Positions 22,094-24,546 of a DNA stretch of 26,956 bases are shown here, piece after piece. The position numbers and the translations under genes are program-made. How positions within the stretch are numbered: the first letter of the stretch is position 1; every line of letters begins with the position of its first letter. The notes below the pieces were generated by a model. The model was not told the origin of the DNA. It was given only the letters and a program-made list of their open reading frames with translations, and ran no database searches. This DNA comes from a virus: IMG/VR virus record IMGVR_UViG_3300027852_000150, positions 1-26,956 of that record. One strand, given 5' to 3'.

Positions 22094-23569
22094 CTACTTA
22101 GTGTTTAAATACCCACCCAAAATTGATATTTTTGAATTTACAGTTGTGGTCAATTCGTAAATCCGACTCCGTGAAGTGCCGAGCTTCCTAAATTCTGCTC
22201 TCTTACTATTTGCTCCAAGAGTTATCCCTGTTGAATATGTGTAACCATCATCATCAGACCATTTTAAGGTGCAAACAGGAACATAATCGCTCGAATCGTT
22301 TTCAAAGTCTACGATCAAAGACGAATGCGGTATCGGGTTGTAATTGTCGTGTATTATCTGAAATCTTCTTACACGCTCAATATCGTTACCATTATCCTGA
22401 TATGTGTCCATGCTTACTTCCCAAAGTTTCCCGGTTGAATCATCACCTACAAGTAATCTCCCACCAAAATTTATCGCTGGTGACATTGGAGGGGAAGGAA
22501 AGGAGGGAGTTTCACCTATGAAGAAATGTGTTGTTCCATCCCAATTGGAGTTAGCTCCACGAGATACAAAGCCAGAAGCATAATACGATGAGATTTGAGT
22601 GAATTCATAGTACCTTGCATCTGGTAATAATAGTTGATTTTCTCCGTTTCTGCCAGTCCCATACAACACTGTGTCTTTTCTTGCTATAGTGTAGAATGAG
22701 CTTGCTTGTATTTGTGACACTGCTGTTAGTGATAATTCGGTCAACACATATCTATCTATTCCGTCTATCAGCCCAAGTTGGTTGCTATGATTATGCCCTG
22801 ATCCATATAATGTACCTGATGAATTTTGAGCAAAAATTGTGTAATCACCGCTCCAAACATTTTCCCAATTTGTTTCTGTGCCAAACTTTGTGAGGGCAGA
22901 GTAACTATCAGTTGATGTTCCTGTCCCTATACATCCATGACCATTAACACCTACAACATGTAACTCGCCGCTACTATTTATTGCCAGTGTTGATCCAGGT
23001 GTTACGGTAATTTTTGACCAGTTAGTTGCGTTGGTTGATTCTTGTGTGAAGTAATAGCTGTCAGTGCTGCAACCACAGAATGTTGAATAACCGCTTCCCC
23101 ATATTGTCCCATCTGTTTTTAATGCAGCAGAGAAATACTGGAAACTTCTTATATCTGCCCAATCTGTTCCTGCGCCTACCCTTGTCCACGTTGTAACTTC
23201 ATTAGCGTGGCCAAGCCCAAGCTCGCCAGCAATATTGTATCCAACAACCCATAATTCACCTGAGGTTGTTATTGCGAAGGAGCTAAGATTTCCAATTGCT
23301 ATCGTTGATATCCCCTTTCCCCTCAAGGCAACTATTTCTTCCCACTCACCTACAACTGTTGGAACGAACCCAAGAACGCTATGGTCACTATTACCACAAC
23401 CCCAAACAGTACCATCACTTCTTGTTGCTATAGTTGTCTCTTGCCCGCAATATACAGTTTCCCATGTATCATTAGAACCAGCAAGCACAGGGGTATTTCT
23501 GTTGAGTGTGTCGCCATCACCTATCTGCCCCTTGTTTCCTATTCCTACACCATATAGTAAATCTGCCAT
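22094..23569 (-). CDS. RCC1-type seven-repeat propeller fused to the C-terminal domain of a gp10-like tail accessory factor
   Basis: Residues 1-350 hold seven repeats of the RCC1 type. The repeat starts read YGVGIGNKGQIGDG, WGCGNSDHSVLG, VVGYNIAGELGLGH, WGSGYSTFCG, VVGVNGHGCIGTG, YGSGHNHSNQLGL and YGTGRNGENQLLLP. This predicts a complete seven-blade propeller. From about residue 370 the protein changes to a gp10-like C-terminal domain: GKLWEVSMDTYQDNG, CTLKWSDDDGYTYS, EFRKLGTSRSRIYELTTT and a final ILGGYLNTK. The matching N-terminal gp10 part is the neighbouring gene. TAGGA precedes the ATG by six bases. A surface-binding role for the propeller is my inference. I do not know of RCC1 in this protein family. 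Confidence 0.8.
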   Translation of the reverse strand: MADLLYGVGIGNKGQIGDGDTLNRNTPVLAGSNDTWETVYCGQETTIATRSDGTVWGCGNSDHSVLGFVPTVVGEWEEIVALRGKGISTIAIGNLSSFAITTSGELWVVGYNIAGELGLGHANEVTTWTRVGAGTDWADIRSFQYFSAALKTDGTIWGSGYSTFCGCSTDSYYFTQESTNATNWSKITVTPGSTLAINSSGELHVVGVNGHGCIGTGTSTDSYSALTKFGTETNWENVWSGDYTIFAQNSSGTLYGSGHNHSNQLGLIDGIDRYVLTELSLTAVSQIQASSFYTIARKDTVLYGTGRNGENQLLLPDARYYEFTQISSYYASGFVSRGANSNWDGTTHFFIGETPSFPSPPMSPAINFGGRLLVGDDSTGKLWEVSMDTYQDNGNDIERVRRFQIIHDNYNPIPHSSLIVDFENDSSDYVPVCTLKWSDDDGYTYSTGITLGANSKRAEFRKLGTSRSRIYELTTTVNSKISILGGYLNTK

Positions 23570-23577
23570 ACAAAATC

Positions 23578-24546
23578 CTATGCTGTATCCGGTCTATTCC
23601 ATTCATGCCAATATCCGCTATTGATATTGAAACAGAATGTCCGGTTTGTTGTTGGAAAGCTTAATACGTAAAAAGTCTCGCCTTCAAGAGAGTACCCCCA
23701 TCCTGTGCATGATGCTTTGTCTGTGAATGTTGATATCTGATATTCCATCCCTTCTTGAGAAATTCTTTCGTATTGCATTCCATTAGTTCTAACACATTCT
23801 CCGTCATTAGTCAACCAATATAGCCTACCTTCGATTGTTGCTATAGACGCTTGTGCTGCACATCCAACGTCTAAAACTCCGTTTGGCACTCGTGCCATTG
23901 GGAAGAAATCATCTGCGATTGGATACCATATTTCTGTTGATTCCGTTCCAAAAAACCACATGTTTTGAGTGGTTGTACCAAGACCAACAAGATTGTCTGA
24001 GTTTGACTCTGCTTTTTTTACTCTTGTGGCGTCCCAGTCGGTTACATCATATGCTCCTGAAATATAAACATCGGCAGTCCCAGGCTCAAAGATTATATAA
24101 AATCCATTCAAAAAAGCTACTCCGGCAGATGCCTGATATGCTGCAGCTGGAAATCCCTTTACGACTGTAGGTGCATCATAGGTTATATATCTTGGATAGT
24201 ATGAACCATCAACAATCATCATCGACAAATAATTATCTGCTATTTGAACGTATGCGTCTGTGGTTGTTAAAACCTCACCTGTACATTGAGTAACTGTATC
24301 ATCAGTCTCAATCATATAAACTCTATTTCCAAGAACAACATATAGGTTGTCCCTGAACATCCACATCCCTCTATTTCTTGCTTCATATCCGATATCGATT
24401 CCCTCTGATAACCCAGGAGTATGATACATTGCTATTTTATTTTTTGCGCCAGTATTATCTGTCACAGGGAATAAATTGACTGATTGTTGTGAGTTATTCC
24501 CTGTTGATCTTCCTTCATACGCTCCGCCTAATATTGGTATTTGCAT
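23578..24546 (-). CDS. N-terminal half of a gp10-like packaged DNA stabilization protein
   Basis: The 322-residue product follows the N-terminal part of P22 gp10-like tail accessory factors. It starts IPILGGAYEGRS...SVNLFP, passes FLNGFYIIFEPGTADVYISGAYDVTDWDA, and reaches WFFGTESTEIWYPIADDFFPMARVPN and VGCAAQASIATIEGRLYWLTNDG. It ends YVLSFPTTNRTFCFNINSGYWHEW. A complete gp10 continues for another 100-150 residues, but this one stops with TAG right after HEWNRPDTA. The missing C-terminal domain is encoded at the end of the next gene, out of frame and after an RCC1 insertion. Gp10 plugs the portal to keep the DNA in and recruits the tail fibres. Confidence 0.85.
   Translation of the reverse strand: MQIPILGGAYEGRSTGNNSQQSVNLFPVTDNTGAKNKIAMYHTPGLSEGIDIGYEARNRGMWMFRDNLYVVLGNRVYMIETDDTVTQCTGEVLTTTDAYVQIADNYLSMMIVDGSYYPRYITYDAPTVVKGFPAAAYQASAGVAFLNGFYIIFEPGTADVYISGAYDVTDWDATRVKKAESNSDNLVGLGTTTQNMWFFGTESTEIWYPIADDFFPMARVPNGVLDVGCAAQASIATIEGRLYWLTNDGECVRTNGMQYERISQEGMEYQISTFTDKASCTGWGYSLEGETFYVLSFPTTNRTFCFNINSGYWHEWNRPDTA

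Follow-up and report, generated by a model that had tools for sequence, protein, structure and literature searches.

A split gp10-type tail hub gene with exchangeable propeller inserts in a group of viral contigs

Tail hubs of the gp10 type, essential components which seal the DNA channel and hold the needle, belong to the most conserved proteins of short-tailed phages. The locus considered here raises the question whether such a hub can be encoded in two pieces with a foreign propeller at the join, and, if so, whether the interruption is an accident of one record or an inherited arrangement. It lies in a 26,956-base IMG/VR virus record (the window, i.e., the whole stretch of DNA analysed), which is a fragment without end repeats. 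An earlier note on this DNA had assigned the N-terminal part of gp10 to one open reading frame (ORF1) and the expected C-terminal domain to the end of the next one (ORF2), behind seven RCC1-type repeats. Its coordinates, its reading frames and the junction of TAG plus 8 nt were reproduced on recheck, and the features of the locus, all encoded by the minus strand, are as follows.

23578..24546 (-): ORF1, N-half of a P22-gp10-type tail hub (head closure Hc3), by phrog_578, tblastn and alignment
23570..23580 (-): junction comprising the ORF1 TAG, an 8-nt spacer, a stop-overlapping AGGA (Shine-Dalgarno-like) and the ORF2 ATG
22094..23569 (-): ORF2, RCC1-type propeller and gp10 C-half in one ORF, by profiles and AlphaFold2 model
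22526..23569 (-): seven RCC1-type repeats, exchangeable module, ORF2 residues 1-348, by PF25390, PF00415, PF13540 and PDB folds
22094..22477 (-): gp10 C-half (closing blade strands and C-terminal domain), ORF2 residues 365-491, by phrog_578
21379..21714 (-): 111-aa gene with a counterpart 3' of the C-half in split relatives
20517..21377 (-): DNA ejection protein, phrog_598 'DNA ejection', E 3.2e-12

In the profile search ORF1 (322 aa) covers columns 4-323 of the 486 columns of phrog_578 'head closure Hc3' (E 2.9e-59), in agreement with the abrupt ending described earlier; its last residues are SGYWHEWNRPDTA, directly followed by the stop, and tblastn with ORF1 matches gp10s in 43 phage records. 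The remaining part of the hub is found in ORF2 (491 aa), residues 365-489 of which match columns 337-468 of 486 (E 4.9e-13), so that the gp10 similarity anticipated after about residue 370 begins, both by profile and by alignment, from about residue 365. Between the two matches about 13 columns are missing, corresponding to a loop. The gp10 C-termini of cultured phages are about 26-31% identical to this C-half, and in a joint alignment with 14 complete gp10s the conserved elements are present, the break falling directly after the WHER/WHEW motif. Seven RCC1-type repeats are readable in residues 5-338, N-terminal to the C-half, with matches to PF25390 (E 8.2e-37) and PF00415 (E 7.5e-13). Pfam cut-offs are exceeded by PF00415 (49.3 bits vs 21.7) and PF13540 (44.7 vs 22), and PF25390 is under its own cut-off in the window and above it in the split relative L206 (257.7 vs 150). 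For the AlphaFold2 model of ORF2 (mean pLDDT 81.9) the top PDB folds returned by Foldseek for the propeller are UVR8, HERC1/2 and RCC1 (target-normalised TM about 0.8), which identifies the seven-bladed RCC1 fold. In the window and the relatives of RCC1 type, a single ORF carries both RCC1 and the gp10 C-half (the L284 contig stops before the C-half), which sets aside the option, named in the earlier note, of RCC1 being an unrelated separate tail protein. The gp10 position upstream of the DNA ejection gene corresponds to the P22-like order, and the 111-aa gene recurs downstream of the C-half in eight relatives (L206, L282, L289, L295, L298, L301, L341, and L354). By its sequence, the window locus belongs to the gp10 hub family and breaks its single-chain rule.

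How firmly this rule is kept elsewhere was assessed on 191 ordinary gp10 loci drawn from cultured phages, IMG/VR and bacterial genomes. Both halves reside in one ORF in 191 of 191, being 30-89 nt apart in 189, and an insert at the split site was found in none of these loci; the window halves are 1124 nt apart on two ORFs, and since the ordinary loci keep the halves together, this split is not a matter of chance. Ordinary gp10s matched in tblastn by ORF2 residues 283-488 resembled cases of RCC1 insertion but were discarded, those loci being unsplit. A genome scan yielded 21 gp10 loci with no split ones among them, single-protein scans of viral contigs with the window ORFs revealed no split relatives, and a broad alignment of gp10 C-halves gave no usable pattern. 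Split relatives surfaced only by scanning with an RCC1 alignment and then with alignments of the window plus L206: the RCC1-domain scan provided the second case (L205/L206, with an N-half 43% identical to that of the window), and L375 and L399 were added by a scan with the helical ORF characterized below. In sum, gp10 is split at the same point in 19 uncultivated short-tailed phages, i.e., in the window and in 18 further viral contigs (near-identical contigs counted once), and the split noticed in one record is thereby found in relatives too.

Two kinds of insert occur in this group. RCC1-type propellers are carried by nine viruses (window, L206, L280, L283, L284, L301, L341, L342, and L343) and Kelch-like propellers by ten (L278, L281, L282, L289, L295, L298, L345, L354, L375, and L399), the type being assigned from the start of the insert for the few contigs that stop before the C-half (L284, L375); several contigs are broken inside the C-half. 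In the Kelch type, the N-half and the ORF combining Kelch-like propeller and C-half are set apart by a helical ORF (about 225 aa), and with a complete ORF lying between the halves this arrangement is workable only with a two-chain hub. None of 50,697 phage records matched the RCC1-C or Kelch-C ORF over at least 80% of its length, no cultured phage record did so for ORF2 of the window, and the helical ORF had no match among the same 50,697 records. In L295 (6604-7932) the Kelch part is broken by a stop into 180 aa and 258 aa, the latter including the C-half, which may reflect either decay of the cassette or one more split. A BACON-like carbohydrate-binding domain read by eye in L399 received no Pfam support.

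Phylogenetic distribution of the two types points to their repeated exchange. The tree of N-halves fits one origin of the split (support 86/87) with the unsplit L287 and L349 as neighbours; the branch leading to the window is long (1.33). Within the split group the RCC1 and Kelch types are intermixed, and well-supported branches force at least four changes. The clearest pair, L281 (Kelch) and L283 (RCC1), both from the same sample set, shares 94.6% DNA identity in the N-halves and 92.6% in the C-halves with unrelated inserts between them. The opposite relation is met in L278 and L281, where the helical ORF is 88% identical and the N- and C-halves just 68-69%. Across 13 viruses the identities of N- and C-halves are correlated (r=0.86, permutation p 0.0001), while those of N-half and insert are hardly so (r=0.27 with the window, 0.17 without it); therefore, the halves are co-inherited like parts of one structure and the middle is exchanged. 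On these comparisons the gp10 split is an old, conserved architecture with an exchangeable insert, either RCC1 or Kelch.

If the halves form one structure, the position of the cut in the folded hub is of importance. The model of the unsplit sister L287 (mean pLDDT 91.4) matches P22 gp10 (Z 38.7) and Pan3 (Z 41.0) over nearly the whole length, as well as Sf6, the crAss001 muzzle, the SU10 nozzle and T7 gp12. Mapped on this model, the split site coincides with a two-residue hairpin turn (residues 316-317) between strands 312-315 and 318-321; in our own grouping of the blades, it would join a finished blade to the strands that, together with the N-terminus, complete the propeller. The SU10 nozzle has blades 1-3 pointing away from the channel, and its closing blade, blade 1, contributes the loop of the fibre dock (PMC9509320). 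By analogy, an insert would emerge at the outside of the hub close to the fibre dock, and placement of the propeller near the fibre attachment side is plausible as judged from the model and from the distant T7 and SU10 nozzle structures.

We consider it probable that these loci encode a two-chain gp10 hub carrying an exchangeable display or adhesion propeller on ORF2. According to this proposal, ORF1 would form most of the hub propeller and ORF2 the closing-blade strands and C-terminal domain, with the RCC1-type propeller ahead of them; the two chains would pair like the halves of an uncut gp10, and the extra propeller, probably in six copies per virion, would protrude outward from the hub. 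Both the pairing and the protrusion are conceivable because the break is a tight hairpin turn between two blades. Whole ORFs, i.e., RCC1 or the helical ORF with the Kelch-like propeller, would be swapped at the join by recombination, leaving the conserved halves undisturbed; what makes this feasible is that the join falls between genes whose stop and start are close or overlap, and not within a reading frame. Most likely, the module attaches to some feature of the host surface and is exchanged under host-range selection, given that unrelated folds replace each other between conserved, co-inherited halves. For an Acinetobacter phage, the nozzle-type protein TTPB has been reported to determine host range and to compete for adsorption (PMC10904470). 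The adhesion role as such is a guess from the pattern, since RCC1 and Kelch propellers also exist as separate phage proteins, and there is no reason to expect Ran exchange or chromatin binding from a phage RCC1 domain. If the proposal is true, a cut in the hub serves as exchange point for whole display domains, offering a new route to an altered tail surface, and nature provides a two-piece hub accepting foreign domains at one defined turn. The locus also bears on a possible host-binding function of RCC1 and Kelch propellers, which many environmental phages encode.

The main competing explanation retains the assembly of the halves and regards the propeller as structural, responsible for tail stabilisation, fibre docking or needle protection rather than for receptor binding. 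The nozzle protein of T7 and SU10 bears the fibre dock, and the Ig-like domains inserted in SU10 stabilise the tail and contact fibres (PMC6702177, PMC9509320); moreover, long fibre-like ORFs lie immediately 3' of the C-half ORF in L342 and L345 and could themselves be the receptor binders. A structural role, however, would select one fold, whereas RCC1 and Kelch swap several times, and inserts of the same kind diverge (32-56% identity among the RCC1 type) against N-halves that reach up to 97%. We therefore find a purely structural propeller unlikely.

Still less room is left for ORF2 being a separate adhesin anchored by a borrowed gp10 C-half, with a complete gp10 or a second C-half elsewhere serving the hub. 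Its foundation is the coexistence of a propeller-bearing C-half with another one in two contigs. L301 contains RCC1-C followed by a lone C-half, and L278 contains Kelch-C and RCC1-C in tandem. In L278 the two C-half starts share 99.2% identity over 132 nt, and the final bases of the N-half, GAGTTATATATGA, are repeated just 5' of the RCC1 start. The second C-half of L278 probably continues in L347, because the start of that contig equals the final 78 nt of L278. Nevertheless, a single C-half is present in most split loci, among them contigs of 41 and 48 kb, and no second complete N-half was seen there; besides, the N-half ends at the same point in all split loci, which means that it always needs a partner. 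This makes the borrowed anchor quite improbable, and the arrangements of L278 and L301 look like steps of cassette gain and loss. As a tentative extension of the two-chain reading, more doubtful than the reading itself, the split hub might be a cassette platform in which the N-half is a constant socket and tandem propeller-plus-C-half cassettes are used in turn or together. If so, the six hub subunits of such phages would bear altered or mixed display domains, and recombination between the short repeats with which the cassettes begin (GAGTTATATATGA in L278) would drop the first cassette, converting the L278 arrangement into that of L206.

A two-chain hub presumes that the halves are translated separately, and here the junctions are informative. 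The frame of ORF2 is -1 relative to ORF1, and together with the TAG and 8 nt this upholds the statement of the earlier note that simple read-through cannot join them; an AGGA is located 6 nt 5' of the ORF2 ATG. When the window junction was set against 14 further N-half junctions, the N-half was seen to end four residues past WHEW/WHQW in nearly all split viruses (six in the window), with strikingly constant tails (WHEWQSLG, WHEWQSYI, WHEWQSVW, WHEWESEV, WHQWSSLW and similar). The stop may be TAA, TGA or TAG, the gap ranges from -4 (ATGA overlap, about a third of the fifteen tabulated junctions) to 14 nt, and the frame of the following ORF is 0, +1 or -1. Fusion of the halves into one chain at some rate through frameshifting, bypassing or read-through could draw on the frequent -1 frame and the ATGA overlaps, but no XXXYYYZ slippery heptamer is present in the 13 nt over which the window frames overlap before the TAG, the frame relation differs between relatives, and in the Kelch type the complete helical ORF intervenes, so that we rate such fusion as very improbable. 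Varied stops and frames at one cut rule out programmed frameshifting and sequencing error alike: the idea that the split stems from gene decay or from faulty sequencing or assembly, prompted by the fragmentary metagenomic origin of the window, the contigs broken within the C-half and the interrupted Kelch ORF of L295, is hardly credible and as a general explanation is refuted by the same break in 19 viruses with differing stops, frames and spacings and by N- and C-halves that are intact and co-vary.

Compared with known systems, the proposed two-chain hub resembles the P22 gp10, Sf6 gp8 and Pan3 and Pam1 stabilisation (needle-head) proteins in that both halves match phrog_578, in the predicted fold of its unsplit sister L287 (like P22 gp10 and Pan3) and in the gene order ahead of the DNA ejection gene; it differs from these single-chain proteins, which have no such insert, by two ORFs and the extra propeller. 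With T7 gp12, the SU10 nozzle and crAss001 gp44 it shares a propeller hub from which extra domains depart (PMC6702177, PMC9509320, PMC10172136), according to the L287 model likewise between blades. In those proteins the inserts (nozzle tip, Ig-like domains) are encoded in frame and branch off at blades 2-3 or 3, whereas the insert of the split group is predicted to exit at the closing-blade join, is itself a propeller and is accompanied by a split gene. RCC1-like proteins number eleven in phage phAPEC6 (PMC7247149), and RCC1-type propeller proteins were also found in Clostridioides and Synechococcus phages and in Pseudomonas phage Littlefix, where the protein is annotated as tail fibre; these are separate proteins or, in the last case, a tail fibre, and no gp10 half is fused to any of those examined. 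Similarly, L380, L387, L388, L391 and L395 contain Kelch-like proteins (phrog_27227) and an adjacent helical ORF as in the Kelch-type cassettes, though without gp10 fusion. Exchangeable tail-fibre tips and invertible fibre cassettes, e.g., of Mu and P1, likewise combine a conserved anchor with an exchangeable distal part. The present module differs in residing in the hub protein, and neither inverted repeats of at least 20 nt (window 21300-25000) nor a resolvase-type recombinase (PF00239, 11 records, all fragments) were found to drive the exchange; a reverse transcriptase (PF00078), as expected of a diversity-generating retroelement, was likewise found in 0 of 11 fragment records. The opinion of the earlier note that RCC1 in a phage tail plug has not been described stands insofar as no description of a split hub with exchangeable propellers was found in the open-licence literature; it needs narrowing, as nozzle inserts (SU10, crAss001) and RCC1 folds in other phage proteins, one of them annotated as tail fibre, are known. 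As far as our searches show, the split gp10 hub is real, conserved and undescribed in this form.

Other additions and splits were encountered among gp10 relatives. In L333 (3027-4424, 4381-6810) and L335 (3642-7256, 7253-8839), kept apart from the 19 split viruses, gp10 is divided inside the C-half, after the closing-blade strands, and the second ORF bears other long domains (LamG-like in L333, below the Pfam cut-off), possibly representing an independent hub split. The N-half ORFs of L301 (3399-5531; EPTP match, E 1.2e-14) and L298 include a further repeat domain, in frame, at around profile position 157, which may give each of these hubs two added domains. The N-half of the gp10 relative L366 (2385-5402) contains a lactonase-type seven-bladed propeller in frame (PF10282, E 5e-27), one more propeller inside a propeller, and L371, another relative, has a weak LamG match in frame. 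Since L366, L301 and L371 carry in-frame domains at other loops, the gp10 hub is repeatedly targeted for added domains. Helical ORFs like that of the Kelch-type cassettes (phrog_1409, weak) are widespread (L373-L452); in about ten phages without gp10 nearby such an ORF stands directly 5' of a Kelch-like protein, and the pair is therefore taken as a mobile two-gene module. In L241/L243, L265 and L252/L253/L257, RCC1 repeats form very long arrays (up to about 2480 aa) or are spread over several ORFs of one phage contig.

Closely upstream of the gp10 N-half, the window encodes a 244-aa protein (24704-25438, minus strand) that reads as leucine-rich-repeat-like and has no Pfam or PHROG match, and, further upstream, a 128-aa protein (25451-25837, minus strand) with DUF4998 and weak fibronectin type III matches. 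Elsewhere in the window, an anaerobic ribonucleotide reductase NrdD (11876-13687, plus strand; PF13597, E 3.7e-176) has dCMP deaminase and thymidylate synthase genes close to it, and this gene content suggests that the host of the phage is anaerobic. A C-5 cytosine DNA methylase is encoded at 14277-15155 on the plus strand (PF00145, E 9.2e-51).
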